Part shown: one piece after another, positions 4,366-47,162 of the stretch
How positions within the stretch are numbered: the stretch's first letter is position 1
Layout of the letters: every line of letters begins with the position of its first letter
Notes under the pieces: model-generated
Told to the model about the DNA's origin: nothing
What the model saw: the letters and a program-made list of their open reading frames with translations, nothing else
Database searches by the model: none
Assembly: GCA_947311625.1 (NCBI GenBank)
Contig: CAMZKW010000006.1
Coordinates: 1-47,162 of the forward strand
Direction: 5' to 3'
Source: Candidatus Campbelliibacteriota bacterium
GTDB taxonomy: Bacteria; Patescibacteriota; Minisyncoccia; Phycocordibacterales; GCA-2747955
Length of the DNA stretch: 47,162 bases
Translations under genes and position numbers: made by a program

Positions 4366-4680
4366 ATGAAAGATTTTTTTGCAGATGAGTTGATCATAAG
4401 GTATTCTAGAGTAGTTGTCTTTGTCTTTGATGATGGGAAGAAAGGCGTTGTTTTAGGAGATTATTTGTTGTTCAGAAAGAGCCCATATTTTGGTCAAGTG
4501 TACGAACTTGAGGTCGAAAAGGTACCGAAGGCTGTGGATTATTCTGATATCGAAGATGCTATTCATACAAAGAGGTCTGATATACCTGATTCTGTAATGG
4601 AAAAAATAGAGAGGGTGCTATCAGAAAAAGATTTCAGGAAGTTCGAATTAAGTATCGAACTAAATGAACTTAAATCATAA
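4366..4680 (+). CDS. Small hypothetical protein, SD-led class
   Basis: AAAAGGAG-N6-ATG; TAA stop followed by terminator hairpin CTTAGAGTTTTTACTCTAGG-T8. Confidence 0.75.
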   Translation: MKDFFADELIIRYSRVVVFVFDDGKKGVVLGDYLLFRKSPYFGQVYELEVEKVPKAVDYSDIEDAIHTKRSDIPDSVMEKIERVLSEKDFRKFELSIELNELKS

Positions 4681-4712
4681 TTGCTTAGAGTTTTTACTCT
4701 AGGCTTTTTTTT
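4681..4712 (+). terminator. Intrinsic terminator after 4366 ORF
   Basis: gcttagagtttttactctaggctttttttt. Confidence 0.6.
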
Positions 4713-4770
4713 AATAATTTATCTTTTTAAAGAAAGATTAAATTTTTCCTAAATCTATTATAATTCTCCT

Positions 4771-4809
4771 ATGGCTAAAAAATTTTATATCACAACTCCT
4801 TTTTTTTAA
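4771..4809 (+). pseudogene. Truncated metG-like start (MAKKFYITTPFF*) with intact leaderless-type promoter
   Basis: TATAAT (4759-4764)-N6-ATG; peptide resembles metG start [13 protein letters not shown] and then stops. Confidence 0.4.
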
Positions 4810-5027
4810 GATAGGGAATAACTTTTCAATCCTTTCCTTTCTGAACTAAACACAAAATGTTTGCTTCAGAAAGGAATAAACACCTTGTTGCTTCTATTCT
4901 GAATGAATAGATTAAAAGTATTTTATAATATTATTTTTGTTTTGTTAATTTTTTTGATTGTTTTAAAATTTTTAGAAAATAGGTGGCGCGTAGCGCCACC
5001 CATTTTTATTTTTTATTTTTCTTAAAA

Positions 5028-5462
5028 TTAAAACTTAATCTCCCTTGTATTTTCATCAATATATTTTAATTTAACATTAAACCTATTTTCTTTTGGCAAT
5101 CATTTTTCAATCATTTCTGGCCATTCCAAAAAAATCAAATTTTCTGTTTTTATTAAATCATCTAAAAGTCCAATTAAATCTAAATCTTCCTCTCTTTCTA
5201 GTCTATAAGCATCAATGTGAATTAATTTTTTTCAAGGAAAGTTTTTTGATTTAATTTTATATTTTTTTGAAATAACAAAGGTAGGAGAATTTATTTTTTC
5301 TTTAATTTCTAAAAGCTCTCCAATTTGTTGAGTGAAAGTAGTTTTTCCAGCACCTAAGTCTCCCGAAAGAGTGATTAGTGTTGCGGAGTTTTGGGGAGCA
5401 GAAATTTTCCGAAGCAAAATTTTCGCCACATTTTTAGTTTCTTGAATACTTGTTGTTTTCAT
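5028..5462 (-). CDS. tsaE: tRNA threonylcarbamoyladenosine biosynthesis protein TsaE, TGA=Trp
   Basis: TLSGDLGAGKTTFTQQIGELL, SPTFVI, HIDAYRL, LIFLEWPE. Confidence 0.9.
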
Positions 5463-5503
5463 ATTTTTCTATTTTTTTATCTTTCAAATTATGTTAAAAT
5501 TAA

Positions 5504-6277
5504 ATGAAAGAAATTGTTGTATTAATTGTAATATATTATGTAACAATTATCAATAAAATAACAAAAAATATGAAAAATAAAAATAAAATAATTTTATCTT
5601 TTTTAATGGTATCTTTTATGGCAAATTCAATTTTTGCTTTTGAAAACACAGATACAATTCGAGAAAAAGTAAATAAAGCTCTGGGAGAGAGTAAAGAAGT
5701 GAAAGCAATTATCAAAAAAGAAGTCACAAAGCAAGTTAAAGAAGAGGTTAAGAAAATAAAATCTAAAGATTATTTAGAATCAAAAAAAATAATCAAGGAT
5801 AAAAAACCAGAAGATATATTTTTTGAAAATATAAAAAATGCTAAAAATGAAGAAGAAAGAATATCTATTTTTACAAAATTTAAAAAAGATATAAAAGAAA
5901 AGCCAGAATTTATTAATAATAAAATAAAAAATATATTTACAAAATTTGATTTTATTTTAGATAAATTAAATAAAGTTAAATCAAGTATTGATAAAGAAAA
6001 TTTATCTTTGAAAGAAAGAGGTTTGGTGTTTGGAATATTGGAGGAAAAAAATATTGAAATTGAAAAACATATTGATATGGCAAAAAAGTCTAAGGCATCC
6101 GCTTGAATTAATATGGAAAATATAGATTTTTCTGGAGAAAAAGAATATATTATTTTGTCTTTGAATGATGTTAAATTAGATTTGATTTCTTCAAAAAATG
6201 AAATTAAAAAAGTGTCTCAATTACTAAAAGAAAATATTGCTTTTATAAAAGGAGCTTTATCAACATTTAAAAAATAA
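5504..6277 (+). CDS. Secreted/lipid-anchored-type Lys-rich hypothetical protein (start may be 5570), TGA=Trp once
   Basis: Signal peptide MKNKNKIILSFLMVSFMANSIFAF; frame continues through TGA to TAA 6275-6277. Confidence 0.65.
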
Positions 6278-6280
6278 AAA

Positions 6281-6541
6281 ATGATTGAAGAAGGAAATAA
6301 AAAAGAATTATGATTGATTATAGCAATAATTTCTATTGTGCTTCTTATTTTATTTTTATTTTATTTTTATTTTTTTAAAAATATAGAAAAAAAAACAGAA
6401 ATTAATAAAGATAAAAATAATGTTGAAGTAATTGATAATCAAAAAAATATTTTAAAAAATGATGAAATTGATATAAAAGAGATAGAAAAAAGACTTGATG
6501 ATTTAGATATAAATTTAGATGATGTTTTAAATCAATTATAA
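6281..6541 (+). CDS. Single-pass membrane hypothetical protein
   Basis: MIEEGNKKEL[W]LIIAIISIVLLILFLFYFYFF...; follows previous CDS. Confidence 0.55.
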
Positions 6542-6554
6542 AAAATATAAAAAA

Positions 6555-6583
6555 CTGGCACGGCGACTTCGTCGCCGTGCCAG
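6555..6583. terminator. Bidirectional GC-rich terminator hairpin
   Basis: CTGGCACGGCGACTTCGTCGCCGTGCCAG flanked by A and T tracts. Confidence 0.8.
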
Positions 6584-6602
6584 TTTTTGTTATAATAAAA
6601 AA

Positions 6603-7232
6603 ATGTCAAAACATGGAATACAGATAACATCCCAAAGGATTGGAAGTCTTGAAAAAGAATTAATTAAATATTCACTGGATATTCCAAAATCATCTTTAGT
6701 TTTAGATTTGGGTGGTGGCAATGGTTTTATATCAATAATATTATCTTTAATTCAAAAACAAGTATATTATTATGATTTAAAAATAGATTTTAAACTAAAA
6801 ATTTTTAAAAAATTATTTTCTTCTAAAAAATTAAATTTAATAAAAAAAGATTTAAAAAAAATAAAATATATTGATTTTCCAAAAAATATAGATATTATTT
6901 ATTCTGCAAGATTTTTTCATTATTTAACATATAAAGAATCAGATGATTTGTTAAAAAAACTTTCAAAGAATTTAAAAAAAGATGGAAAAATATTCTTAAC
7001 TCTTTCAGGAATAGACTCTAATATAGGAATAAATTATAAATGTAAAGATATAAAAATAGAGGAAAGAAGTTGTTTTTTATCAAAATCTAACCAATCTAGA
7101 TTCAAAATAAAAGAAAAAGTAACTTTATACAAAAAAGAAGAATTAGAAAATTTAATAAAAAAATATTTTAATATCCAAGAAGTTTGAGAATCTGATTTTA
7201 AAAATATTTTTGTAATTGCTGTTAAAAAATAG
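6603..7232 (+). CDS. Class I SAM-dependent methyltransferase
   Basis: SSLVLDLGGGNGFISIIL motif I; TATAAT-N6-ATG; continues through one TGA. Confidence 0.7.
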
Positions 7233-7251
7233 AAATGTTATAATAGTTTAT

Positions 7252-7560
7252 ATGAAAAAAGAAGAAAAAGAATATATTGAGCCAGAGATTATTAATGAAT
7301 CTAATGAAAAAGCTCATAAATTTGAAAATAAAAAATTTGATGATATAAACAATCAAGTTTCAAGTATAAAAAAAGCAATTTTATTAAAAGGTTTATCTTC
7401 ATTAATTTTACCAATTAGTATATTTTTGATAATAATTATAGCTATCGTGTCTTTGATTATGTATGTTATTGATACACACCCTTTTGACTATATAGTTTCA
7501 GGTATTTTTCTATTCCTTATATTAAGTCCTGTTTATAAATTAATTAAATATTTTAAATAA
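7252..7560 (+). CDS. Two-TM hypothetical membrane protein
   Basis: TGTTATAAT box shortly upstream of ATG; hydrophobic segments. Confidence 0.55.
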   Translation: MKKEEKEYIEPEIINESNEKAHKFENKKFDDINNQVSSIKKAILLKGLSSLILPISIFLIIIIAIVSLIMYVIDTHPFDYIVSGIFLFLILSPVYKLIKYFK

Positions 7561-7561
7561 T

Positions 7562-8551
7562 ATGTTTGAAATTACAGCAACTTTGTCAGTTTTGGTATTG
7601 GCAATTATTTTTATTATATCCCTAGCCTCATTGGTAAAAGGAGCTGACTTTTTACTTGAAGGGGCAGAAAGGGTAGGAAGATATTTTAAGCTTCCATCAT
7701 TTGTTATCGGAGCTTTGATTGTTGGAGTTGGAACTTCACTTCCAGAATTAGCCTCATCTATTTTTGCAGCAATGGATGGAAAAACAGAGTTTATTACTGC
7801 CAATGTTATTGGTTCAAATATTGCCAATATTTTACTTGTGGCAGGTCTGGCTTCAATTATTGGGAAAGTTATTTATACAAATAAAAATTTAATTCGTTTA
7901 GAAATTCCTTTGTTAGTTATTTCAACTTCATTATTTTTATTTGTAAGTTATGATGGGATTATAAATAAGTTAGAATCTTTTGTTATTTTATTTGCTTTTA
8001 TAGTTTATGTAGTTTATCTTTTAAACTCAAATAGATATTTAACCGAAGAAGACAAAAAAGATATTCAAGAGAATAATGAGGATGAAGAATATGAGGAAGT
8101 TAATAGTATTGGAATTAAGGAGTTTGCTTTATTAATTGGAGGTGGTTTATTGCTTTCTTTTGGAGCAGATTATTTAGTTCAGTCTGTAACAGCTTTTTCT
8201 CAAAAATTAAATATTGGAATTTCAATAATTTCAGTTTTAGCAGTTGCCATAGGAACTTCTTTGCCAGAAATTTTAGTTTCAGTAAAAGCAGTTTTAAATG
8301 GAAAAACAGATTTAGCATTTGGAAATATTTTTGGTTCAAATGTTTTTAATATATTAATGCTAACAGGAACCATTGGAATTTTTACAAATATTGAAGTATC
8401 AAAATCTATGCTAGAAATAGGATTACCATTTTTAGCAATTACAACTTTAATATTTTATGTTTCTGCAACAGCTAGAAAAATTTATATTTGAGAAGGGTTA
8501 ATGTTTTTAGGTTTTTATGTTTTATTTGTTTTAAAAATAATTGGATTTTAG
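7562..8551 (+). CDS. Calcium/sodium antiporter (CaCA family, YrbG-like)
   Basis: Duplicated GVGTSLPELASS / AIGTSLPEILVS and GSNIANILL / GSNVFNILM motifs. Confidence 0.92.
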
Positions 8552-8622
8552 AAAATTATATTTTTTGAGCTTTTTATTTAATTTAGTATATATGAAATAT
8601 GATATAATATAATAATTAAATT

Positions 8623-10365
8623 ATGAGTGAAATTGAAGATATTAAGAACAGACTCTCCATTGAAGAAGTGATTGGGTCTTATATAAAGTTAGAAAAATCA
8701 GGATCTAATTTTAAAGCTCTCTGTCCATTTCATAATGAAAAATCCGCTTCATTTTATATAACACCGAGTAAAGGGTTTTATAAATGTTTTGGTTGTGGAG
8801 AATCTGGAGATATATTTAATTTTATAGAAAAATATGAAGGGATTGGTTTTTCTGAAGCATTAAAAAAATTAGCTGATAAAGCAGGGGTCGAGTTAAAAAA
8901 AAATAGTTTTAAAAATAACAAAGAAGATAAAGAAAAAAAAGAAAACCTTTTAAATATTTTAAAAGATATAACGATTTTTTGACAAAAAAAACTTTTAGAA
9001 AATGAAGGTGTAAAAAACTACCTTAAAAAAAGAGGGGTAAATAATGAAATAGCTAAAAAATTTCAGTTGGGTTATGCTCCCGATGGTTGAGATAATACTT
9101 TAATTTTTTTAAAATCTAAAGGCTATTCTCAAGAAGAAATTGAAAAGGTTGGATTAATTAAAAAAAAAGAAAATGGTGGGTTTTATGATAGGTTTAGAGA
9201 TAGAATTATTTTTCCTATTTTTAATTTAGATGGAAAACCAGTGGCTTTTTCTGGTAGAGATTTTTCTGGTTCTGATAAGGTGGCAAAGTATTTAAATTCT
9301 CCCGAAACAATTTTCTTCAATAAATCATCTATTTTGTATGGAATGAACTTTGCCAGAGATGAGGCAAGACGTAGAAAGTATTTTATTTTAGGGGAAGGTC
9401 AAATGGATTTAATAATGGCTCACAAGGTTGGTTTTGAAAATATGGTTGTTACTTCGGGAACTTCATTGACTGATGAACATTTAAAAATAATGGGAAGATA
9501 CACAAAAAATATAATCTTTGCCTTTGATTCTGATAGCGCTGGAATTAAGGCGGCATATCGTGGAATTAAAAAGGCTTTGACAAATGACTTCGATGTAAAA
9601 ATTATTGATATGGATAAAGGTAATGATCCTGCGGACACTATTTTAGAATCTTCAGATAAATGAAAAGATTTAGTTGCCAATGCTAAAAATTTTATAGATT
9701 TCTTTATACAAAAAATTATTTTTCAAAAAAAATCAGATAGAGAAAAAATTATAGAAATGGAAGAAAAGATTTTACCATTTATTTTAAAAGTTCCGGACCC
9801 AATTTTAAAAGGAAAATTTATTTCAAAAATTGCTCGTGGTTTTGATGTTAAGGAGGAATTTGTAATTGAGGCTTTAGATAAGATAAAGATTGAAATTGAA
9901 AATGAAGAAAAAAAAGAATTATCTTTGTTAAAGGTTAAGTCAGAAAATATTGATATTTTTTCAAAAAAAGGTATAATATCAGATACTAGAAAAAAAATAT
10001 TGAAAGAGTTGTCAGCTATATATTATTGACAATTATCTTTGGAAGAACCAAAGAGATGAATAGAACCAAAAGAACTTTTAGAAAAAATAAAAAAAATTAC
10101 AGATAGAGATACTTATCAAAAGATTTTAGATTTAGATGATAAAGTTAAAAACTTTTGAATATTAGAAGTACAAGTAAAGTTTGAAATTGAAACAAAAGAA
10201 AATTTAATTTTTTCCCTAGAATCCTATGAAAAAAGATTAGAAAAGAATAATATTGATAATAAAATTTCTTTATTAACAAAAAAAATATCTTTTGCATCTG
10301 ATTCTAAAAAAAAAGATATTCTAAAAGAAATACAGGAACTCAGTGAAGAAAAAAATAAATATTAA
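8623..10365 (+). CDS. dnaG: DNA primase, TGA=Trp
   Basis: [32 protein letters not shown] zinc finger; [25 protein letters not shown]. Confidence 0.96.
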
Positions 10366-10379
10366 ATTATAAAATCGCC

Positions 10380-11468
10380 ATGGCTATAAAAAAAACTACC
10401 ACAAAAAAAAAAATAGTAAAAGAAAAAGTTCTTAGTAAAAAAGAATTAAAATTAGAAGAGGCAAGGTTACTTGCTTTAGAGGAACCAGATGATTTAGATT
10501 TAGAAGCAGTTGAACTTGATTCTCTTGATGATGTTGTAAAGCCTAAAGATGAAGTGGGTTTGTTTGATGATATTGATGAAGAATTTTTTGATAATTCTGG
10601 AAAAAAAGATAGAAAGGCTTATGATCCAATTCAAATTTATTTAAAAGAAATAGGAAAGAAAAATCTTATTACCCAGGCTGAAGAGGTAGAGTTAGCCAAG
10701 AGAGTTGAGGAGGGTGATGAAGAAGCAAAGAAGATTTTAGCTAAGTCAAATTTAAGGCTTGTTGTTTCAATTGCGAAAAAATATGTTGGTAGGTCACCAG
10801 ATTTAACACTCCTTGATTTAATTCAGGAAGGGAATATGGGTCTCTATAAGGCAGTTGATAAATTTGATTATAGAAAAGGTTTTAAATTTTCAACCTATGC
10901 AACTTGGTGAATTAGACAAGCGGTTACAAGGGCCTTAGCTGACCAATCAAAAACAATACGTATTCCAGTTCACATGGTGGAAACCATAACAAAATATAAA
11001 CAAGTTATGAGACAATTAACTCATGATTTAGGTAGACCACCGGAACCAGAAGAAACTGCTATAGAAATGGGAATACCTTTAGAAAAGATTTATCAGATAA
11101 TGAAAATTAGTCAGACTATGGTCTCTCTTGATGTACCTATTGCAGGTTCCGATGGTGATGAAAAATCTACCATGGCAAATTTCATATCAGATGATATGGA
11201 CTCTGGGGATGTAATAATGAGTCCTGAAGAGGAGTCAAATCAAAGAATTTTAAGAGAAGAAATTCTTAAAGTTTTGAATGTTCTTTCAGAAAAGGAACAA
11301 CAAATTTTAAAAATGAGAAATGGTTTGATTGATGGAATTTTTCATACCTTGGAAGAGGTTGGAAAAGAATTTGATGTCACAAGGGAAAGGATAAGACAGA
11401 TTGAGGCAAAAGCTCATGAAAAAATTAAAGATTCAATGGAAGCAAAAAGATTAAAAAACTTTTTTTAA
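10380..11468 (+). CDS. rpoD: RNA polymerase primary sigma factor (sigma70), TGA=Trp
   Basis: [31 protein letters not shown][W][25 protein letters not shown]. Confidence 0.97.
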
Positions 11469-11612
11469 AAAATTAAAACAATGCCCAGAAGCATTGTTTT
11501 TTTGATAAATATATTATATAAAATTATATTTATTTTATCAAGTATTGACACTGGACAAAATGTTTATATATATTTATTATATTTTTTTCATGTGATATAA
11601 TTTAAAAACTTT

Positions 11613-13472: not shown

Positions 13473-13473
13473 A

Positions 13474-13513
13474 AATAACGACATAAATTGCTATAGCAAT
13501 TTATGTCGTTATT
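13474..13513. repeat. Palindromic hairpin repeat, copy 1 (probable terminator)
   Basis: AATAACGACATAAATTGCTATAGCAATTTATGTCGTTATT perfect palindrome; near-identical copies at 31625 and 35809. Confidence 0.85.
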
Positions 13514-13578
13514 TATTTTAAAAAAATAAAATTTTTTTATTTTAAATTTTATAAAATGCTATAATATATAAATATATT

Positions 13579-15069: not shown

Positions 15070-15097
15070 AAAAAATCAAATTTTTGTTTGATATTTT

Positions 15098-18451: not shown

Positions 18452-18478
18452 TTGACAAAAAAAAAAGACGATTATAAT
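18452..18478 (+). promoter_or_regulatory. Consensus promoter with poly-A spacer
   Basis: TTGACA-(A9)GACGAT-TATAAT. Confidence 0.7.
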
Positions 18479-18543: not shown

Positions 18544-19149
18544 TTGTTTGATACAGAAGAGGTTAATATAGGCTTAAAAAACAGAAACAAGTTTATTATA
18601 GGAGGGAGTATCGATCAGAATATATTCTTTAGAGTTAGAGATTTTCTTACTTATTTTGAATCTAGAGCTGATTTAAGTACAGGTAAATATCCTGATATCG
18701 AAATCAAAATTGATTCTCCAGGTGGTGATTATTCGAAATACGGAAAGAACATCTGTATAATGCTAAATGAGTACAAAGGTAAAATTACAGGTATAGCTAC
18801 GGCTAATTGTAGCTCAATGGCTTTTTTAATTTTACAGAATTGCGATGTGAGAGTAGCCTATGAGAATGTAAGGATGGTTCCGCATTTGGTATCATACACA
18901 AATTTTCATGAAAGGCTTACATCGGTTGTTTATGAAAAGTTGATAAATGGCGACAAGAAGCTTTTAAAGGGGTTGAAATATCGTCTAAAAAAATTACAAA
19001 AAGATGATATGGATTTATCTAAATTCCTATCAAAAAAAAGTAATTTATCGGAAAAAAAAGTGTTGAAATTGTTGAAGAAAGATACAACTATTTCAGCAAA
19101 AAAAGCTTTAAAGTTGGGATTTATTGATGAAATAATTCCAGCTTTTTAA
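18544..19149 (+). CDS. Standalone ClpP/SppA-like serine protease, SD-led class (TTG start)
   Basis: IDSPGGDYSKYGKNICIML, IATANCSSMAFLIL (Ser nucleophile context), MVPHLVS (His), LGFIDEII. Confidence 0.7.
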   Translation: MFDTEEVNIGLKNRNKFIIGGSIDQNIFFRVRDFLTYFESRADLSTGKYPDIEIKIDSPGGDYSKYGKNICIMLNEYKGKITGIATANCSSMAFLILQNCDVRVAYENVRMVPHLVSYTNFHERLTSVVYEKLINGDKKLLKGLKYRLKKLQKDDMDLSKFLSKKSNLSEKKVLKLLKKDTTISAKKALKLGFIDEIIPAF

Positions 19150-21049: not shown

Positions 21050-21232
21050 ATGGTGTGGTGGTTTTTATTGTATATTTGTATTGGATTTATAGTGTCTATT
21101 ATTGATAGCATGGTTAGAAAATCTGATATGCTGAGTATAGCAGCATTTATTATTTGGCCGGTGGTTCTATTTCTACTTTTAAAATTATTGGTAGACATAG
21201 TTTATATTATTTACAAAACAAAAAAAGGATGA
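21050..21232 (+). CDS. Small membrane protein, SD-led class
   Basis: AAGGAGGaattATG; three TGG Trp; ends TGA-TAA. Confidence 0.65.
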   Translation: MVWWFLLYICIGFIVSIIDSMVRKSDMLSIAAFIIWPVVLFLLLKLLVDIVYIIYKTKKG

Positions 21233-23097: not shown

Positions 23098-23425
23098 ATG
23101 CAAAACAAGACATTGTTCTTTGCATATAATAGCAAAGGTAAAAAATATTAAGGTGGGATTTGTTGTAGATGAAGAAATTCTCCCTCTAACAAATTTTAGC
23201 AATATAGATGTTGTTTCTGCCTATTTCAGTTTTCATAATATTATTTATCTAGAAAACATTGAGGTTTTAGAAAACAATGTTGTCCTGGAAACAGGTATCT
23301 ATAGTGTTGTTTTTATTAAGGGTGTAGAGGCCGCCAGAGGTTTTGGCTTGGAAATGAGAGAGGTAAAACTTTCAGATTTTCCTCTTTTAAAATCTTTTAA
23401 GGAGATGGCAGGTAAATTATTTTGA
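23098..23425 (+). CDS. Small hypothetical protein, SD-led class, with apparent +1 frame change (main ORF from about 23120)
   Basis: AAAAGGAGGTAAAGATG starts MQNKTLFFAYNSKGKKY*; the long ORF lies in the next frame; TGA at end directly precedes terminator stem. Confidence 0.45.
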
Positions 23426-28640: not shown

Positions 28641-28996
28641 GTGAAAGACTTAAATTTAAAAAAAAAAACGTTTTGGTGGCGGTATTTTTTATACTTAGTG
28701 TTGTGATTGCTTTTGCAAGTAATAATGACAAGGTATTTATGAGAACTGGATTGGCAGTTATTACGGGAAATAAAGTGGATTTTCAAAATCCACTTCCCGC
28801 AGCTGGTCCAGGACAAAAACTTTGGTCCGTAAAAGGATTTGGGGAAACAAAAAACGGCTTAAAGGTTGCAAAACTTTGGAGCCTATATTTTGACTTCGAA
28901 TCCGGCCCGGGAGTAGAGGTCATAGAAAGTACAAAGTATATTGTACTAGATATGAACTCATATAAAGGTGGCGAGTACACCTTTTCAAATAAATGA
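28641..28996 (+). CDS. Small exported/anchored hypothetical protein, SD-led class; frame change at A11 tract
   Basis: AAAAAAGGAGaaagtGTG start; shift within A11 joins VKDLNLKKK to NVLVAVFFILSVVIAFASNNDK...; TGA stop directly before terminator. Confidence 0.5.
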
Positions 28997-34715: not shown

Positions 34716-34751
34716 TATAATTATAAAATTAGATATTTTTAGAATTTAAAA

Positions 34752-34782: not shown

Positions 34783-34828
34783 ACAAAAAAGTTATAAACA
34801 ATATATTAACAAAAAATATTAAAAATCC

Positions 34829-34857
34829 TTGACAAATAAATTATAGTATGATATACT
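34829..34857 (+). promoter_or_regulatory. Sigma70-type promoter
   Basis: TTGACA-N17-TATACT. Confidence 0.65.
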
Positions 34858-34862
34858 TCTTA

Positions 34863-35000
34863 TATAGTTTTTTTGTTTTTAAAAACAAAATAGCTGGATT
34901 GCTCACGCAATCCAGCCATCAAAAACTATAAAAGGCCTGAGTTGTCAAGATATTTTCTTTAAGAATTTTAAGAAACTTTTAAAGAAAATTATCTTGGCTA
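34863..35000 (+). ncRNA. Structured 5' leader candidate (three-way junction plus long hairpin)
   Basis: TATAGTTTTT/AAAAACTATA outer stem; GCTGGATTG/CAATCCAGC; AAGATATTTTCTTTAA/TTAAAGAAAATTATCTT. Confidence 0.5.
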
Positions 35001-35040
35001 AAAACAGCTGTCAAGCTTTCCAAATATCAAGGAGGATAAA

Positions 35041-35202
35041 ATGAAAGAAGAATTGTTTACAAAAAAAACACCAGCTATCGTAGAAGCAATTGCTGAGGCG
35101 AAAAAAACTGGTGGGGTTATATACAAAGACCTCGAAAGTTTCGATGCCTGGGTAAAAGTACCAAAGGCTCAGCCTACAACAAATGGAGTAGCGTGGATAT
35201 AG
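35041..35202 (+). CDS. Small hypothetical protein, SD-led class
   Basis: CAAGGAGGataaaATG; 53 codons; two TGG Trp; TAG stop. Confidence 0.6.
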   Translation: MKEELFTKKTPAIVEAIAEAKKTGGVIYKDLESFDAWVKVPKAQPTTNGVAWI

Positions 35203-35522
35203 GGGGGAAAGAAATCCCTTATTACCATGCTGGTAAAGGAGGAGGTGAGTTGGTGGTTCTGAACATGAGTTTTTTTGGAATTTCCAATAGTGATATTGGA
35301 AGAATAATAAAATTTCATGTTTGGATAGAGGCTAAGGTTTTCCCAGTAGGTAAATTTTATTTGGGAATCAAACTGATCAAAAAAGATTTTGATGATCATG
35401 ATGTGCCCATGTTGACGGTAGTGGTAGATAATTCTCTTCCAAGAAGTACCACTGCAACTTTCCAAGCAGTTAATAACTGGAAAAAAAGCCCAATCGTTTG
35501 CTTAAGGGACAAGAAAAAATAA
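35193..35522 (+). CDS. Hypothetical protein overlapping the previous ORF (GTG start or frameshift product)
   Basis: Open frame, overlaps the 35041 ORF by 10 nt in -1 frame; two TGG Trp. Confidence 0.55.
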   Translation: MDIGGKEIPYYHAGKGGGELVVLNMSFFGISNSDIGRIIKFHVWIEAKVFPVGKFYLGIKLIKKDFDDHDVPMLTVVVDNSLPRSTTATFQAVNNWKKSPIVCLRDKKK

Positions 35523-35566
35523 CTCATTTTAAAAAGGAGGATAAAATGATATAGAGGAAATAAAAA

Positions 35567-35745
35567 ACTAGTGTAGACTACTAGGAAACCGTGATGAGCG
35601 GGAAAATCGCTGGCATACCGAGGATAGTATGTTAAAAGTTAGAAAGTGAAGAGTAGTCTATTTTTCAGACGAACTACACTTTTGATTGACTGATTAGCAG
35701 TCAATTTTGACTGCGAAAGGTTCTTTCGTGGTTCTTTTTTTGAAA
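35567..35745 (+). ncRNA. Candidate structured RNA ending in intrinsic terminator
   Basis: TAGACTACT/AGTAGTCTA, AGTGTA/TACACT, ATTGACTG/CAGTCAAT, CGAAAG-GTT-CTTTCG followed by T-tract. Confidence 0.45.
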
Positions 35746-35760
35746 AATAATAGGATGTGT

Positions 35761-35783
35761 GGGTGGCGCCGAAGGCGCCACCC
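35761..35783. terminator. GC-rich terminator hairpin
   Basis: GGGTGGCGCCGAAGGCGCCACCC. Confidence 0.7.
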
Positions 35784-35808
35784 AACTTTTATTTATTTTT
35801 TTAAAATT

Positions 35809-35842
35809 ACGACATAAATTGCTATAGCAATTTATGTCGTAG
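35809..35842. repeat. Palindromic hairpin repeat, copy 3
   Basis: TACGACATAAATTGCTATAGCAATTTATGTCGTA. Confidence 0.85.
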
Positions 35843-35909
35843 TTTATAAATACTTTAAAATATTAAAAGATAAAATATTTTATAAAAAACAATATGATAT
35901 AATTACCCA

Positions 35910-37097: not shown

Positions 37098-37146
37098 TTT
37101 CTTTCTTTGTGTTAAAATATTTTTAGATTAAAAAAAAAGAGATAGA

Positions 37147-37530
37147 ATGAATTATTCTATGATAAAATCTTACAAAGAAACTTTGAGCGAGACCATGCAA
37201 TCGTTGGAATGTAAGTACGGTCACCCTTGCATAGAAGGACTTGAAAAAGCTGTTTATGTTGAAGACATATGTGAAATAAAAATGGCAAAAAAAATGAATG
37301 AGTTGAATTACAGTAGTAATAATATAAATTCAATGCCCACTATTGTTAAAACAACAGTTTTTTCTCACGGAGAAAGAAAATTGTCTTGGACAATATACTA
37401 TTCCATTGAACTACGAGATGATTTTTACTACCTAAACTATTTGGGTAGCAAACCTAATTTTGAAAATAATTATGGTGCAGTTCTAGATAAATATTATTTG
37501 CCTAAAACAAAATACCGTAATGCTTATTAA
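37147..37530 (+). CDS. Hypothetical protein, accessory class
   Basis: 127-codon ORF, one TGG Trp, TAA stop, followed by SD-led ORFs. Confidence 0.65.
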   Translation: MNYSMIKSYKETLSETMQSLECKYGHPCIEGLEKAVYVEDICEIKMAKKMNELNYSSNNINSMPTIVKTTVFSHGERKLSWTIYYSIELRDDFYYLNYLGSKPNFENNYGAVLDKYYLPKTKYRNAY

Positions 37531-37544
37531 AGAAAGGAGATAAA

Positions 37545-37795: not shown

Positions 37796-37813
37796 ATTCC
37801 GGTTTTTTATTTT

Positions 37814-37860
37814 TAAAATAATTTTGCACCGCTGCGAAGCAGCGGTGCAAAATTATTTTA
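37814..37860. terminator. Long bidirectional terminator with GCGAAGC core
   Basis: TAAAATAATTTTGCACCGCTGCGAAGCAGCGGTGCAAAATTATTTTA. Confidence 0.85.
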
Positions 37861-37882
37861 AAAATGATATAATTTATAAATT

Positions 37883-38428: not shown

Positions 38429-38509
38429 ATTATTTATAAATATATCTTTTTTTTATTTTAAAAATATGATAAAATATAATTATTAATAATATAATATAAT
38501 ATAATATAA

Positions 38510-38725
<216 letters not shown>

Positions 38726-38735
38726 TTAGAATAAT

Positions 38736-39176
38736 ATGGATCAAATTATTGAAAAATTTGGAATTGATTGAAAAATTTTTTTAGCTGAAGTTATTAACTT
38801 TTTAGTATTATTATTGATTTTATCATTTTTCTTTTATAAGAAAATATTTTCTGTAATTGAAGAGAGACAGAAAAAAATAGATGATGGTTTAAAGAAATCA
38901 GAAGAAGCTCAAAGAATTTTAGAAGATGCAGAAAATAAAAAAAAAGATATTATAGTGGATGCTAGGGATGAAGCCAACAAAAAAATAGATAAAGCTATTG
39001 AGATTGCTAAAATTAAAAAAGAAGATCTAATACTAAAGGCAAAAAAAGAATCAGAAAGAATAATAAACTCTTCAAGAAAGTTTGGAGAAGAAGAAAAAGA
39101 AAAAATTATCAATTCATCAAAAGATGAGATTTCAAAAATGGTTGTTCTAGGAGTTGAAAAAATATTGAAAGGGTAA
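38736..39176 (+). CDS. atpF: F0F1 ATP synthase subunit b, TGA=Trp
   Basis: N-terminal TM plus long coiled-coil VIEERQKKIDDGLKKSEEAQ; directly downstream of atpE. Confidence 0.88.
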
Positions 39177-39206
39177 TTTTTTTTTTAAATATGTTAAAAT
39201 ATATTT

Positions 39207-40898
39207 ATGAATATTACTTTTAATGAAGATACACCCCAATTGCAAAAATTAAAAAAAATTAAGATAAAATCAGAGGAAAAATTAATTAAAATATTTGCAG
39301 AAAATGCTGGTTTAAAATATGTAGATTTAAGTTTAAAATCAATTAATACTGACGCACTAAAATTAATACCAGAAGAAAGGGCTAAAGCAGGTGGTATGGC
39401 AGTTTTTGACATGCAAGACAAGAAGGTTGATATAGCATTGAGATCTCCTTTGCCTCAAAAAACTCAAGAAGAAATAGAAAAATTAAAAGATAAAAAATAT
39501 AAACCAACTATTTATATTGCATCAAAAAAATCATTGAAAAAGGCATGATCAAGATATGGAGATATTTCATATTCTGTTAAAACAGAAAAAGGAATAATTG
39601 ATTTATCTTCCGCTGATATTCAAGATGTTTTAGAAGAAATTAAAATATTAGATGATGCAAAAAATATTTTAAAAGAAGCTGTTAATTCAAATAAATCATA
39701 TAGGATTTCTAAAATAATAGAATTATTTCTTTATGCTGCTTATGCTCTGGGTGCATCCGATGTTCATATTGAAACATCAGAAGATGATGCAAGAGTTAGA
39801 TTTAGAATGGATGGTATTTTAACGGAAGTTGTAAAATTTGATATGAAAACTTTTAACAGAATTCTTAATAGAATTAAGCTTACTGCTGGTTTAAAAATAT
39901 CAATTAAAAATAATGCCCAAGATGGCCGTTTTACTATTCGTTTAGCAGATTTAGAATTAGAGATCAGAACATCAACGCTTCCAGATGCCTATGGTGAGTC
40001 TATAGTTATGAGGCTTTTAGACCCAAAAGCTATCTCTGTTCCAATGGAAAGACTTGGTTTTCTACCATATTTTCAAGAAATTGTTTTAAATGAAATAAAT
40101 AAACCAAATGGTATGGTTATAAATACTGGTCCAACTGGTTCAGGTAAATCTACAACACTTTTTGCTTTGTTAAAAAAATTAATTAAACCTGAAAATAAAA
40201 TTTTAACTATTGAAAATCCCATAGAGTATCATGTTAAGGGAATAACTCAGTCCCAGGTTAATGTTGAAAAAGGATTTACTTTTTTAAATGGTCTGAGGGC
40301 TGCTCTTAGACAGGACCCCGATGTTATTATGGTTGGAGAGATTAGAGATGGCGAGACAGCTTCCATTGCTGTTAATGCTGCCTTAACGGGTCATCTCGTA
40401 TTTTCTACATTACATACAAACTCAGCAGCTGGAGCTTTTCCAAGGTTTATGGAATTAGGCGTTAATCCAAAAATTTTAGCTACTGCTATGAATATGGTTA
40501 TTGCGCAAAGGCTTGTTAGAAAACTTTGTTCTTTTTGTAAAACTCAAGTGGATGCATCTGATAAAAAAAATAAAAGGCAGATTGATAAAATTGTAGATAT
40601 TTATTCATCCATAGAAAATAAAGATAGGTTTGTAGATACTTCTATTAAACATAAAATATATAAAGCTGTAGGTTGTAAAAAATGTAATAATACTGGATTT
40701 AAAGGGCGAGTGGCTGTTGTGGAAGGAGTTATTATGGATGAAAAACTAGAGGTTCTTTTGGCAACCGAACCAACGGAAAGAGAAATTGTAGCAAATACTA
40801 GACATCAAGGGATTTTGAGTTTAAAAGAAGATGCTATTATTAAAATAGTTTCAGGAGTAACATCCTATGAGGAAGTTTTAAGAGTTGTAGAGTTATAG
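39207..40898 (+). CDS. pilB: Type IV pilus/type II secretion ATPase (PilB/GspE), TGA=Trp
   Basis: GASDVHIE, INTGPTGSGKSTTLFALL, LRQDPDVIMVGEIRDGETASIAVNAALTGHLVFSTLHTN, CxxC zinc motifs. Confidence 0.95.
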
Positions 40899-40922
40899 TT
40901 TTTTTATGATATAATTTTTCGT

Positions 40923-42669
40923 ATGAAAAGAATTTTTTTGTTTTTAATAATTTTATTTGGTTTTTCTTTTTCAATTTTTGCTGAGGAGATTAAAAATTAT
41001 GAGGTTGATTTACATTTGAATAAAGATTCATCTATTGATATGGAGGAAAAAATTAATTATCATTTTGGGTCTTTTTACAGGCGTGGGATTTATAGATACA
41101 TTCCATATACTTTTGAAGTTAAAGGGCAGAAAAATAAAAAATAGTGTATCTAAGAGAAAAATTAAGATTGAAAATTTTCAAGTTTATAGAGATGGAATGG
41201 CAGAAAATATTGCTGAATTAGATGAAAATTCTAATGGACAATTTTTCGCTAAAATTGGAAGAAAAAATCAAACAATTACAGGCGAACATAAGTATATTTT
41301 AAAATACAAAGTCCGTGGTTCAATTAGGTATTTTGATAATTTTGATGAAGTTTATTGAAATGCCATGGGAACTGGATGAACTATTCCAATTAAAAAGGCA
41401 AAGATAAATTTGTATTTTGATCAATGGGAATTTAAGGATAAATCTTGTTATCAGGGAAGATTAAAATCAACTGAAAAATGTGATATTCAGGGAAATACTT
41501 TTTATTCCACAAGGGTTTTAAATTCAGGAGAGGGTTTGACTGTTGTGGCTTCTTTTAATAAAGGCTTGGTAAAAAAAGAAATTTTTTGAGATGAAAATGT
41601 TTTAAAAATTTGATGAAAGGAAATTTTAGCCTTTTTAGCAACTCTAATTTCTGGGATTGGTTATTGGATTTATTCTTATAAAAACAAATATAATCCACAC
41701 AAGCCAATTATTCCAATTTATGAACCTTATCAAAATTACCACCCAACTTTAACCGGTTACTTAATTGATGGGAAGTTGGATGGTAGAGATTTGACTGCTG
41801 GTATAATTTCTTTAGCACAGAAAGGTTATATTAAGATTAAAAGAACAACAGAAAAAGTTTTATTTTTTGATGTCGATAATTACGAGTTTATTCTTTTAAA
41901 AGAGACAGATGAAAATACCGATAAATTAGATAGATTTTTAATTGAGTTTTTATTTAGTAATAAAACTTTTGATGATATTATTAATTTGATAAGTTCTAAA
42001 GAAAAGGAAGATAAGTGGGATAAAGAAAGATTGGATAAGTCGGTTAAGTTGTCAGATTTAAAGATGGTAACCCATCAACTTTATGCACAAAAAAAAGAAA
42101 TTGATAAATTTTTAGAGAAATATTCAGAAATTAGTAGTTTTATTGAAAAAAATTCTTTTGTTAGGATATTTGTTAGGATAATAATCTTTATGTCTCCGAT
42201 AGCTGCACTTTTGGTTTCATTATTTAAAAATTTTAATTTTGTATTTTTTGTCTCTGCATTAATTTTTCTAAGTTTTTTATTGATGGCATTTTTAGCAAAA
42301 AGAAAAACTAGAAAAGGTTGAGAGGTTGAAAATAATTTAAAAGGATTTAAGAAATTTTTATCTTATACAGAAAAGGAAAGAATAGAAATAATTAATAGTC
42401 CAGCACAAAATCCAGAGGAATTTTTAAAATATTTAGCTTATGCTATCGCCTTTAAGGTTGATGATAAATGACAAAAACAATTCCAAAATATTACAATTTT
42501 ACAACCAGATTGGTATGTTGGATCTGGTCCATTTGTAGCAGGAAATTTTGTTTCAGATATTTCTAATTTTAGTGATGCAATTAACTCAGTTACAACAGCG
42601 GCTTATAGTTCCGGAGGCGGGGGGTTCTCTGGCGGTGGAGGTGGAGGTGGAGGAGGTGGTTCTTGGTAG
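40923..42669 (+). CDS. DUF2207 family membrane protein with Gly-rich C-terminus, TGA=Trp; apparent +1 frame change at 41136-41141
   Basis: Signal peptide, FYRRGIYRYIPYTFEVKG in one frame, then NSVSKRKIKIENFQVYRDG...GGGGFSGGGGGGGGGGSW in another. Confidence 0.75.
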
Positions 42670-42701
42670 AATCGCTTTTTTTACTAAAACTTTTTAAAAA
42701 T

Positions 42702-42737
42702 AAGTGTTACAGTGTTACGTAATATTGTAACACTTTA
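42702..42737. terminator. Intrinsic terminator
   Basis: AAGTGTTACagtgttacgtaatattGTAACACTT. Confidence 0.6.
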
Positions 42738-42982
42738 ATATTATTTTTATTGAATTTGTTAGTTAATTTTTCTTTTAAATAATAAATATTTTATAAAATA
42801 TTTAGTACTCAATAAATTAAGTTATTAATTATCTGGTATATTGTAAAATATTTTTTTTAAAAAAATATAATATCAAGTTCAGATTCAAATTTAAGTTGTA
42901 GTTTTTTTTTTTGCTATAATTTAGATATTATAAGTTGGGACTGGTGGCGAAGATACCAGCTAAAAAATAATTAAATAAAAAC

Positions 42983-43564
42983 ATGACAATTATATATGCA
43001 ATCATCGGAGCAGTTGTGGCTATTTTAGCCTGAGTCGCTGGATCCTATAACTCATTGGTTAAGGCAAAACTTTTGGTTGAATCATCATGGGCTGATATTG
43101 ATACTCTTTTGAAAAAAAGATTTGATCTAATTCCAAATTTAATTGAAACAATTAAAGGATATACAGATTATGAAAAATCAACCTTAGAAGAGGTTGTAGA
43201 AGCAAGAACAAAAGCAAGTCAAATTAATATTGATATTTCGAAGGCTACTCCTGAGCAAATGCAAGCATTTCAGGCAAGTCAGTCAGAATTATCAAAAGGT
43301 TTAGGGAAATTATTTGCTTTGGCAGAGGCATATCCAGACTTAAAAGCAAATCAATCATTTTTAGATTTACAGGCTCAATTACAACAAATTGAAACTGAAA
43401 TCAATATGGGGAGAAGAATGTATAATGGGGCAGTGAGAAAATTTAATGAATTAGTTCAAATGTTTCCATCAAATATTATTGCAAATATTTTTGGTTTTGC
43501 TAATAAAAAATTCTTTGAAATTGAAAACGAAGAAGAAAGAAAAAATGTTAAGGTTAAATTCTAA
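42983..43564 (+). CDS. lemA: LemA family protein, TGA=Trp
   Basis: YNSLVKAKLLVESSWADIDTLLKKRFDLIPNLIETIKGYTDYEKSTLEEVVEAR; ETEINMGRRMYNGAVRKFNELVQMFPSN. Confidence 0.95.
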
Positions 43565-43810
43565 ATATCTTTTTTAATTTGAATAGAGGCTCACTGACTT
43601 CATCAGCGAGCCTTGTAAGTATTGTTTGAAAATATCTTGATAAAAAACGATTATAATTTATTTAAACTAAAAATAAAAAATAGAGTAGTTAACCTAAAAA
43701 AAGGGCAAAAATGAAAATATTTCTCAAAAACTTTTTTTTAATGAAATAAAAAATTATAAACCCATTAAAAAATATTTTTAATTTCTTTTTTTTGTTATAA
43801 TAAAGATATT

Positions 43811-44707
43811 ATGAAAACAAAAGAACAATTATGGGGAGAAATAAAACAAGAGCCTCAAAAAGATTTAGATAATAATCAAAATATTATTGAATATAAGTAT
43901 GTTGGTTTTTGATACAGGAGTGGGATGTTTATATTAGATTTTTTATTATCTTTCTTTTCTTTAATATTATTTTTAGCGGGATGATATTATGAAGATTATA
44001 TAATGACTGATAATATGGTCGGAGTTTTTATTTTATTTCTGATAGTCAATATATTTATTGTTTTTTATAATTTATATCTTTATTATACACAAGGGCAGAG
44101 TATTATGTATAAACTTGCCGGAGTAAAAATTGTAGATGAATTTAATTATCAAAAGCCAGGTAATTGAAAACTTTTTAGTAGGTTCAGTTTTAAATTATTA
44201 TTATTAGTTTTGATATTTATTCCATATGTAAATTTCATAGGAATATTAGTATGAGCTTTTATGATTGGATTATCAAAGAAAAAACAAGGACCACACGATG
44301 ATATTACAAATACAATCGTAATCATACCTAGAAATAGATCATATAAAAACATTTTTTTTGTTAGTGGAATATTACTACCAATATTGCTTATAAGTTGGAT
44401 TGTTACGGGGATAAATGATACAGAAAATAAAGAAAATGAAGAATTTTGAGCTCATTTAGAGTTCCAAAAAAGTATGTTATATCAAATGCCAAAAGAGGCT
44501 AATAAATATATTAGTCATAGAAAAAGTTATAAAGGATTTTGCTCTAGTTATTTTAATCTTATTATTGACAATGTATGTGTTGACACAGATGATAATATTT
44601 TGAATGCCTATGAAATAGAACCGAATCAGTATTTATGTATTACACTAAAAGATGAAAAGGTGGTAAGCACGAATAGAATAGACTTAATCAATTTAAAATG
44701 TAAATAA
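43811..44707 (+). CDS. RDD family membrane protein, TGA=Trp
   Basis: YVGFWYRSGMFILDFLLS; GQSIMYKLAGVKIVDE; HDDITNTIVI. Confidence 0.8.
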
Positions 44708-44751
44708 AAGTTGTAAAATTATTACAACTTTTTTTATGTTATAATTTAAAA

Positions 44752-44811
44752 ATGAAACATAAAGGTAAGCCCAGTACTTTAAAGTTTTTGATAAAAAGAA
44801 TAAAAAATTAA
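44752..44811 (+). CDS. Predicted 19-aa basic peptide
   Basis: TATAAT-N6-ATG; MKHKGKPSTLKFLIKRIKN*; followed by terminator at 44834. Confidence 0.3.
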   Translation: MKHKGKPSTLKFLIKRIKN

Positions 44812-44833
44812 AGAATTATAATTTATAAATTTT

Positions 44834-44862
44834 AAAAGAGCGCGCCTTCGGCGCGCTCTTTT
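44834..44862. terminator. GC-rich terminator with C(TTCG)G loop
   Basis: AAAAGAGCGCGCCTTCGGCGCGCTCTTTT. Confidence 0.85.
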
Positions 44863-44900
44863 TAAATAAAAAATTTACTCACAACTTTGTCAATATTATA

Positions 44901-44929
44901 TTGACAAAAAAAAAAAAAACGATTATAAT
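44901..44929 (+). promoter_or_regulatory. Consensus promoter with poly-A spacer
   Basis: TTGACA-(A13)CGAT-TATAAT, 17 nt spacer. Confidence 0.75.
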
Positions 44930-44987
44930 TCATCTAGACTAAAAATAAAAAAGGGATTGGTCATCCATTGTTCAGAAAGGAGCAAAA

Positions 44988-45290
44988 ATGGAGAAGTTAA
45001 CCCAAGAAGAAGGTGTCACCGAAGAAGATATTTTGAATGCTATGAAAGAATTTAAAGCCTCCTGGGATGAATCTATGAAAGAATTTAAAGCCTCTATGGA
45101 TAGATTGGAAGCCTCCTGGGAGGAATTTACTGCAGAACTTTCAAAAAAAATTGATAGAAACAGTAGATCAATTGCCGATATAAATAATAGAGGTGGGAGA
45201 ATAGGACCTCCTGGCTTCAGAGAAGCTTTAGGTCATGGCAGCGCCGTAGGTGGCCCTAATAGAATGGTTAATAGAGCATATTATAGGTAA
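44988..45290 (+). CDS. Small coiled-coil protein with 11-residue repeats, SD-led class
   Basis: AAAGGAGcaaaaATG; repeated MKEFKASWDES/MKEFKASMDRL; TGG Trp only. Confidence 0.7.
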   Translation: MEKLTQEEGVTEEDILNAMKEFKASWDESMKEFKASMDRLEASWEEFTAELSKKIDRNSRSIADINNRGGRIGPPGFREALGHGSAVGGPNRMVNRAYYR

Positions 45291-45403
45291 CTTCTCGGGT
45301 TCGCATTCATTTGTGAACCTAATTTTGTGGAAAAAATCTTGCAAAATAAAGTATTTATGATAAAATATCTCTATTGAAATTTAAATTTTATTTGAGTTTC
45401 ACT

Positions 45404-45437
45404 ATAAGGTATTTCAATCCCCTTTGAAATACCTTAT
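45404..45437 (+). promoter_or_regulatory. Perfect 14-bp hairpin directly abutting tRNA-Asp 5' end
   Basis: ATAAGGTATTTCAA-TCCCCT-TTGAAATACCTTAT. Confidence 0.85.
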
Positions 45438-45511
45438 GCGGCCGTAGCTCAATTGGTTAGAGCACCCGCCTGTCACGCGGGAGGCTGAGAGTTCGAGTCT
45501 CTTCGGCCGCG
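45438..45511 (+). tRNA. tRNA-Asp (anticodon GTC)
   Basis: GCGGCCG...CCTGTCACGC...GAGAGTTCGAGTCTCTT CGGCCGC G. Confidence 0.95.
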
Positions 45512-45549
45512 CAATAAAAAATGTATAGGCATTTTTTTTATTAAAAAAA

Positions 45550-46335
45550 TTAGTGATGATGAGCAAATTCTTTCACTAATCACATTATTAAAATTCCTAA
45601 AAGAACAAATAAAAATTCTATTACAATTTGTGATTTTTTATCATGTTTATGGTTGTGTAATTCTGGAATTAAAGATGCTAGGGCTAAATAAATGAAACTC
45701 CCGCCAGCCAGAGCTGTTAAATAAATTCCAATATTTTGAATAAAGTTTGAAGCAAAGATTGTTAAAATAGCTCCTAAGATTGCAGTTAAACCTGATAAAA
45801 AATTAAATCACAAAGCCTTCATTTTTTCAAAACCAGCATTTAATAAAATACCAAAATCTCCAATTTCCTGAGGTAATTCATGAGCAAATATAACAATAGT
45901 TGTTATAACCCCAAGATGAATATCTGTTAGAAATGCTGAGGCAATAGCTACTCCATCTAAAAAATTATGAAAAGCATCTGAAAACAATATTAAATATCCG
46001 CTGGTTTTAATTTTATTTTGTTGGCAACTTTCACATTTATTTCTATTAGCATTATGATGTAAATGCAAAACCTTTTCAATAATAAAGAATAATAGAATAC
46101 CTACTAAAATTAAATATGTTAAGTTTTGGAAGTCAATATTTTTTTTAATAGACATCATTTCTAATTTTGGAAGTAGGTGAATAAAGAATCCTCCAAGTAA
46201 GGCACCAGTTGAAAGTGCCACCAAGAAAGGAATTATTTTTTTTATTTTTTCTTCCTTAAAGCTTAAAGTTAAAATTCCCACAAAGGCGGTTAGTGAAATT
46301 ATAAAAACTGCTGTTAAAATATATAAAGTTGTCAT
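45550..46335 (-). CDS. ZIP family metal transporter, TGA=Trp
   Basis: ALSTGALLGGFFIHLLPK, DAFHNFLDGVAIASAF, FAHELPQEIGDFGILL, His-rich motifs; TATAAT-N6-ATG on minus strand. Confidence 0.93.
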
Positions 46336-46396
46336 TTTTATATTATAACATAGCTGTCAAGTTTTAATTTTTAAAATAATTTGGTATAATATTTTT

Positions 46397-46822
46397 ATGA
46401 AAATTTTACTATTGGATAATGTAAGAAAAGTGGGACAAAAAGGTGATGTAGTTGATGTAGCCGATGGATATGCTAGAAACTTTTTGATGAAAAATGGCTT
46501 AGGAAGACCAGCAATTGGAGCAAATTTAAAAAATATTAAAAATGCACAAAAAATAAAAGAAGATAAAAAAAATTCTGAAAAAAAAGAATTGGAAGATTTA
46601 TATAAAAAAATAAATAAAAAAACTTTTATTTTAAAACAAAAAGCTTCTGAAAAAGGTCATCTTTTTGGTGGTGTTCATAAAAAAGATATTTCAGATTTAT
46701 TTGGAGGAAATCAAAATATGATTTTATTAGAAAAAGATATTAAAGAAGTGGGAGAATATGATTTAAAAGTTAAATTAGGGGAATTAAAAGCAAAGATTAC
46801 TTTGATCGTGGAAGCTGAATAA
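46397..46822 (+). CDS. rplI: Ribosomal protein bL9
   Basis: MKILLLDNVRKVGQKGDVVDVADGYARNFLMKNGLGRPA. Confidence 0.96.
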   Translation: MKILLLDNVRKVGQKGDVVDVADGYARNFLMKNGLGRPAIGANLKNIKNAQKIKEDKKNSEKKELEDLYKKINKKTFILKQKASEKGHLFGGVHKKDISDLFGGNQNMILLEKDIKEVGEYDLKVKLGELKAKITLIVEAE

Positions 46823-46841
46823 TAGTTAAGAATTATAATTT

Positions 46842-46865
46842 AAAACTGGTGGTGCCACCAGTTTT
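46842..46865. terminator. Terminator hairpin
   Basis: AAAACTGGTGGTGCCACCAGTTTT. Confidence 0.75.
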
Positions 46866-46882
46866 ATTTTTATAAAAAATAA

Positions 46883-46910
46883 CTTGACTTTTTTATAAAA
46901 AAGTATATAA
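46883..46910 (+). promoter_or_regulatory. -35/-10 promoter upstream of dapD-like gene
   Basis: TTGACT-N16-TATAAT followed by AT-rich leader and CAAGGAGG SD. Confidence 0.6.
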
Positions 46911-46989
46911 TATTTGGCAGGTAAGATGTTTAGATTTTTTAATTTATTAAAAAATCTTTAGGAAAAAGAAAAAATCCAAGGAGGATTAA

Positions 46990-47162
46990 ATGGCGATTGA
47001 AACCATCACAAGTACAGAAGCATTTAAACAATTGGTAGAAGAGATAAAACAGAGTGAGGGCTACAGAGAGCCGATCGCATTTGGTATCGCGCGTGTCGAT
47101 CGTGGACAGCTAAGTGTAGAGGCGGTACTGCAGGCCAACTATGCGATCGTCAACTGGATGGA
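46990..47162 (+). CDS. dapD: Tetrahydrodipicolinate N-succinyltransferase-like (DapD), 3' truncated by window; resembles Campylobacterota proteins
   Basis: EGYREPIAFGIARVDRGQLSVEAVLQANYAIVNWM; AAGGAGG-N5-ATG; markedly higher GC than surroundings. Confidence 0.7.
   Translation, partial: MAIETITSTEAFKQLVEEIKQSEGYREPIAFGIARVDRGQLSVEAVLQANYAIVNWM

Follow-up and report, generated by a model that had tools for sequence, protein, structure and literature searches.

Can one bacterial genome hold two sets of genes written for two different expression systems? The question is raised by a 47,162-nucleotide contig of a very small, probably parasitic Candidatus Campbelliibacteriota bacterium (CAMZKW010000006.1, positions 1 to 47,162; contig C6, hereafter the window), in which small open reading frames (ORFs) led by a Shine-Dalgarno (SD) sequence lie among genes that start without a leader and read UGA as tryptophan. 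The assembly (GCA_947311625.1) comprises 624 kb in 22 contigs at 27% G+C and is 92.6% complete. An earlier, sequence-only reading had listed 15 such ORFs, observed that they use TGG for Trp and in several cases end at TGA, and offered three explanations: recent acquisition from standard-code organisms, ambiguous UGA decoding or, speculatively, portability to a standard-code host. We set these 15 ORFs against the native genes of the window and extended the census to genomic stretches that together span about 609 kb. Two gene-expression dialects coexist in the genome. The home dialect combines leaderless mRNAs from an extended -10 promoter, UGA as Trp, UAA and UAG as stops and a ribosome without an anti-SD sequence; in the second, a sigma70-type -35/-10 promoter and a 5' leader with an SD precede ORFs in the standard code, which use each of its three stops. 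We estimate a probability of roughly one half that the second class retains the dialect of a bacterial host with standard code and SD use in order to be expressed there, presumably after delivery.

Two gene-expression dialects in one genome

The long native genes begin with an AUG 6-9 bases 3' of an extended -10 element (TGNTATAAT), with no SD seen. An SD of at least four bases precedes 6 of 357 native genes against 3.6 expected, which is chance level, and the SD was rejected as a general start signal. Their Trp codons comprise 887 TGA and 259 TGG genome-wide (23% TGG), and 110 TGA and 34 TGG in the window. UGA at conserved Trp positions confirms that native genes are read in code 4 (UGA = Trp): the superoxide dismutase gene of the window has TGA for each of its seven hallmark Trp residues, those in GSGWAWL and DVWEHAYY among them. 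A tRNA(UCA) and a tRNA-Trp(CCA) were both found (L012:2943-3014 and L012:2661-2732), and both appear to have G73. Release factor 2 (RF2, prfB) was not found in the assembly, which is incomplete and in which RF1 (prfA) was likewise not found, so its absence rests mainly on the relatives, where G001-G003 carry RF1 only (G002 with an additional small fragment) and most others carry both. The change of UGA to Trp falls within a single genus (the present genome, G000, and G001-G009): G004 retains the standard code and RF2, and G000, G001 and G003 are recoded, which makes the genus a natural series for the study of code change. Other bacteria with UGA = Trp, such as Mycoplasma and insect endosymbionts (PMC8629427), likewise combine this reading with tRNA(UCA) and no RF2 found; here, in contrast, the change lies in a clade that looks Patescibacteria-like by its genome size, gene content and T4SS pilin, for which a review reports only UGA = Gly (PMC13293708), and is accompanied by loss of the anti-SD and by a second, standard-code gene class.

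The only 16S rRNA gene found ends ...GTGGATTATTTCAAAG / GTCGTAACAAGGCACGGCTAGCGGAAGCTGGTCGTGGATTATTTCAAAG, without CCTCC, where other bacteria have GGATCACCTCC. The CCUCC anti-SD of an SD-using organism is thus missing from its own 16S rRNA, and SD sites have no pairing partner at home. In the genus as well as in the order, none of the relatives whose 16S 3' end could be read has CCTCC there; the 3' ends are located at L029:3024-3098 and, for the relatives, in L055-L078.

The second class was collected from SD-led starts (at least six matching bases) outside native genes, which gave 47 raw candidates. Removal of false candidates and addition of promoter-defined and coupled ORFs led to a final class of 46 ORFs, with contig C12 left out as phage-like. 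In the standard code, these ORFs contain 92 TGG and essentially no internal TGA, and end at TAA (21), TGA (12) or TAG (12), one being cut by a contig end. Without three doubtful or compositionally odd members, the class holds 0 TGA and 89 TGG, compared with 887 and 259 in native genes. The earlier count of about 21 TGG in the listed window ORFs proved exact: read in the standard code, they contain 0 TGA and 21 TGG against 110 and 34 in the native genes (Fisher 4e-12). Ending ORFs at TGA makes the zero partly circular. However, genes defined by their promoter only and read wholly by code 4 yield 6 TGA and 31 TGG (p = 2e-14), and the 13 intact window ORFs, read through in code 4 to the next TAA or TAG, yield 5 TGA and 20 TGG (1e-7). 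In TGA-ending ORFs, the distance to the next in-frame TAA or TAG looks random rather than short, and TGA stops occur in 12 of 45 class ORFs vs 5 of 359 native genes of the standard-code sister G004.

Most of the 15 listed ORFs hold, but two of them (23098 and 28641) do not form intact frames in the listed form, and the one at 46990, although SD-led, is a fragment. The SD is strong in most of them; at 37147 it is weak if present at all, and at 18544 it stands at a distance of 10 nt. A terminator hairpin is indeed found at or after each of the TGA ends 23423, 25043 (minus strand), 28994 and 37793, and both ATGA overlaps (21604 and 37646) were borne out; only at 21050, where TGA is directly followed by TAA, is the stop uninformative.

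The two dialects are interleaved: on most contigs, class genes stand as singles to triples among core genes, next to leaderless genes with TGA as Trp. Sixteen of them share promoters of one make: TTGACA-A(n)-CGATTATAAT (TTGACA-A(n)-CGA-TTATAAT), exact or slightly varied, was found at 16 sites, all of them 5' of an SD-led ORF. A -35/-10 promoter with at most one mismatch precedes 18 of 43 class genes, where 0.7 would be expected, compared with 13 of 340 leaderless genes. Leaders are shared between unrelated ORFs: those of window ORF 44988 and of ilvC (L019:18579) are near-identical, and those of window ORF 4366, L032:9201 and L009:4246 share 76-84% identity. The TTGACA promoters of the sister G004 are of a different make, which argues that the promoters were built locally and not brought in by each gene.

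Gene content and recurrence in relatives

Most class proteins are orphans with respect to Pfam; the exceptions are IlvC, the start of DapD, a reverse transcriptase and a ClpP-like protease. IlvC is present and IlvD was not found in the genome, and the same holds for DapD and DapA; an enzyme that stands alone in an otherwise missing pathway is meaningful only within a cell that provides the remaining steps. IlvC is 62-66% identical to gammaproteobacterial, betaproteobacterial and Campylobacterota proteins and ends a branch of length 1.07 (contig scan, IlvC only). With this long branch and a best identity of 66%, no close donor match emerged and neither donor nor host can be named from this one gene. 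A Campylobacterota host, as the sequence-only reading had in mind, is not established. The codon usage of the class is nearer to native genes than to Campylobacterota loci and gives no hint of the host. The reverse transcriptase (L017:12352-13899, minus strand; SD-led, 25% GC, 6 TGG, no TGA) resembles defence reverse transcriptase profiles in its catalytic (RT) domain only; it was the sole PADLOC match, with no defence type assigned.

The protein encoded at 18544 matches PF00574 at 46.1 bits (gathering cut-off 20.2), and S91 and H114, the Ser and His of the triad, are invariant. An SD of at least four bases precedes 26 of 34 copies of this ClpP-like family across the order, compared with none of 21 housekeeping ClpP genes, a same-fold control from the same group of genomes (p = 5e-9); TGA stops likewise occur in 7 of 34 vs 0 of 21. 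In a crude, strict scan, lipoprotein signals were detected in 3 of 30 and 2 of 46 class proteins vs 0 of 359 and 0 of 470 native ones.

Most class genes are not common to the genomes of the genus, and the class itself recurs. The standard-code sister G004 has about 30-38 SD-led ORFs with -35/-10 promoters, among them ThyA (PF00303), a cell-wall hydrolase with a signal peptide (PF07486, SleB-type), an SPFH lipoprotein (PF01145), two ClpP-like proteases and, judged by eye, a DksA/TraR-like protein. In the recoded sister G001, plausible SD-led ORFs contain about 48 TGG and no internal TGA vs 93 TGG and 140 TGA in native genes.

Parts of a possible transfer machinery are a type IV secretion system (T4SS) pilin in the window (PF18895), a VirB4-like ATPase match and weak VirD4-like matches. 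One of the latter (PF02534, G000:C2:89201-91227) lies about 0.7 kb 3' of the SD-led 310-aa gene L032:9201. Patescibacterial T4SSs are widespread and conserved, and in the single strain examined their genes proved essential to epibiotic growth (PMC12102498); a role of such a system in DNA delivery here would be by analogy.

Proposed expression in a host and its alternatives

Of the three explanations first offered, portability to a standard-code host is the best supported, given a ribosome without anti-SD. We propose that the organism keeps the class genes so that they can be expressed in the cytoplasm of a host that uses the standard code and SD sites and is probably diderm. DNA or mRNA would pass to the host by contact, possibly through the T4SS, or be released inside it; the pilin and the VirB4-like ATPase make contact delivery conceivable. 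Host RNA polymerase and ribosomes would then make products that benefit the symbiont: metabolic enzymes, envelope lipoproteins, proteases and orphan effectors. The reading of UGA as Trp would prevent the host from reading home genes, and the loss of the anti-SD would keep the host-directed set poorly read at home. This fuller scheme, in which the symbiont delivers a dispersed host-dialect gene set, the host expresses it and the code change and anti-SD loss separate the two sets, is put forward a shade more tentatively than host expression as such.

Agrobacterium T-DNA consists of bacterial genes that bear the expression signals of the recipient, are delivered by a T4SS and serve the bacterium once expressed there. 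Class genes, too, carry signals of the recipient type and not those of the donor. Unlike T-DNA, they use a bacterial dialect (SD, sigma70, standard code) and are scattered rather than contained in one bordered segment, and their transfer is presumed. Phage auxiliary and host-control genes may offer a further parallel, as may T-DNA genes, for a host-directed set. Code-11-compatible phages of code-25 Gracilibacteria and Absconditabacteria avoid TGA so that a standard-code cell can read their genes (PMC10746230); here, by contrast, we are dealing with scattered genes of a recoded bacterium, with an SD that its own ribosome cannot use. Recoded phages that split their genes by code to time expression (cited in PMC10746230) also hold two stop-codon sets in one genome, although direction and purpose differ and no suppressor switch is involved here. 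The literature searched contains no description of a bacterium with a gene set in the dialect of its host; known codes and phages provide partial parallels. In a search that lacked most subscription journals and all preprints, we found no paper on Candidate Phyla Radiation bacteria without anti-SD, nor one on recoded bacteria with SD-led genes in the standard code. Whether or not delivery takes place, that search also gave no report of a genome with two gene classes differing in start signal, promoter, stops and Trp codon, combined with an order-wide loss of the anti-SD and a UGA-to-Trp change within one genus. If host expression is correct, a cellular bacterium uses the strategy of phages and T-DNA on another bacterium, patescibacterial T4SSs gain a suggested cargo, the loss of the anti-SD and the code change gain a selective reason in the separation of self from host expression, and SD-led genes in genomes without anti-SD become a signature by which host-directed genes could be found across the Candidate Phyla Radiation.

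Several observations weigh against this proposal. Genome-wide, the lack of internal TGA in the class has one real exception, L009:4246, an ORF under a class promoter in which codon 31 is an in-frame TGA and 62 plausible codons come after it. The majority of the class proteins are orphans, and 400 kb of G011, an order-level relative from another family, show no clear class. In Patescibacteria, the T4SS is usually without a relaxase (PMC12102498), and the loss of RF2 leans on relatives. Finally, leadered mRNAs can still be partly translated by a ribosome without anti-SD, so home expression is possible.

Repeated, recent horizontal acquisition from standard-code, SD-using donors, with SD and TGG not yet recoded and many genes destined to decay, appears unlikely, although it would explain why the G+C content at third codon positions (GC3) is 0.287 in the class vs 0.149 in native genes, with several genes at 40-53% GC, why most class genes are absent from sister genomes and why two ORFs are frame-broken. 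It does not account for 16 unrelated genes under one promoter and leader family local to this genome, for an IlvC on a long branch rather than beside a donor or for a ClpP-like family that keeps its SD across the order. Moreover, the AT-rich class members (GC3 below 0.30) contain 41 TGG and no TGA, even though only 24.6% of their AAR, GAR, CAR and AGR codons end in G and about 75% in A; slow amelioration as the sole cause of the TGG bias was rejected on this ground.

Somewhat less likely again, though still a serious rival, is the view that the class is cargo of mobile elements (phage, satellite or plasmid), kept compatible with the standard code to move between recoded and standard hosts. Phage-like types do occur (ThyA, the SPFH lipoprotein, the cell-wall hydrolase, the TraR/DksA-like protein and the reverse transcriptase), the protein at 18544 matches head maturation proteases in PHROG, and the Gracilibacteria phages set a precedent (PMC10746230). 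However, class genes are scattered among core genes with promoters and terminators of their own, and neither clustered phage hallmark genes nor phage modules appear in these contigs. Phage and plasmid searches with three class proteins gave no match (phage records were searched with two, IMG/VR with one), and an SD that the ribosome of this organism cannot read would be of no benefit to its phages.

We consider it improbable that the class is expressed at home, with initiation at the purine tract because it is unstructured or bound by a protein, and with TGG retained because of slow or ambiguous decoding of UGA. Other bacteria are known to translate leadered mRNAs without SD pairing, the genome encodes its own sigma factor (window 10380-11468), and TGG still makes up almost a quarter of native Trp codons. 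But native genes leave the purine tract unused, the TGA stops of the class with their random downstream distances do not fit, and native genes such as that of superoxide dismutase use UGA widely as Trp, which, with tRNA(UCA) present and RF2 not found, also speaks against the ambiguous decoding offered earlier. An assembly chimera or binning contamination, to which C12 as a separate standard-code, phage-like contig and dapD at a contig edge might point, is very improbable overall and is excluded for the interleaved genes, which neighbour leaderless TGA=Trp genes, share local promoters and recur in independent genomes.

Features of the window

Table 1. Second-class promoters, leaders and ORFs in the window.
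Feature	Position	Strand	Remarks
Class promoter TTGACA-A13-GATTATAAT	4210..4236	+	
Structured leader with SD AAGGAG	4237..4365	+	76% identity to leaders of L032:9201 and L009:4246
SD-led ORF, 104 aa	4366..4680	+	orphan; stop TAA
Class promoter TTGACA...CGATTATAAT	18452..18478	+	
SD-led ClpP-like (S14) protease, 201 aa	18544..19149	+	TTG start
SD-led ORF, 60 aa	21050..21235	+	3 TGG; ends TGA TAA
Coupled ORF, 123 aa	21236..21607	+	2 TGG; stop TGA in ATGA overlap
SD-led ORF, 135 aa	21604..22011	+	stop TAG
SD-led ORF	23098..23425	+	frame change at A-run near 23140; continuing frame ends TGA before terminator
SD-led ORF, 62 aa	25043..25231	-	2 TGG; stop TGA in terminator
SD-led ORF (GTG)	28641..28996	+	frame change at A-run near 28662
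-35/-10 promoter TTGACA-N17-TATACT	34829..34857	+	
SD-led ORF, 53 aa	35041..35202	+	2 TGG; stop TAG
Coupled ORF (GTG), 109 aa	35193..35522	+	2 TGG; stop TAA
ORF, 127 aa	37147..37530	+	1 TGG; weak SD
SD-led ORF, 34 aa	37545..37649	+	1 TGG; stop TGA in ATGA overlap
Coupled ORF, 49 aa	37646..37795	+	2 TGG; stop TGA inside terminator hairpin
Class promoter TTGACA-A14-CGATTATAAT	44901..44929	+	
Leader	44930..44987	+	last ~50 nt identical to ilvC leader (L019:18521-18578)
SD-led ORF, 100 aa	44988..45290	+	2 TGG; orphan
-35/-10 promoter TTGACT-N16-TATAAT	46884..46911	+	
SD-led 5' end of dapD (THDPS_N, PF14790)	46990..47162	+	GC 48%; cut by contig end

The A-run frame changes near 23140 and 28662 could reflect sequencing error, slippage or decay; at 28641, the continuing frame includes a stretch resembling a signal peptide and stops at a TGA ahead of a terminator. 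Downstream of the ORF at 4366, positions 4772-4815 resemble the start of the neighbouring metG (MAKKFYITTPFF). Positions 35544-35765, 3' of the ORF at 35193, contain a start of the form AAGGAGG-ATGATATAG as well as an RNA with a stable fold (z = -2.7) of no Rfam family; Rfam gave no known RNA above threshold across the leader and RNA region 34800-35850. Elsewhere in the assembly, C12 (L043, 17.4 kb, GC 37%) holds solely standard-code, non-leaderless, phage-like genes and is possibly a phage of the host binned with the genome. Positions 1-129 of the window are repeated at one end of contig C17, an assembly-graph overlap.

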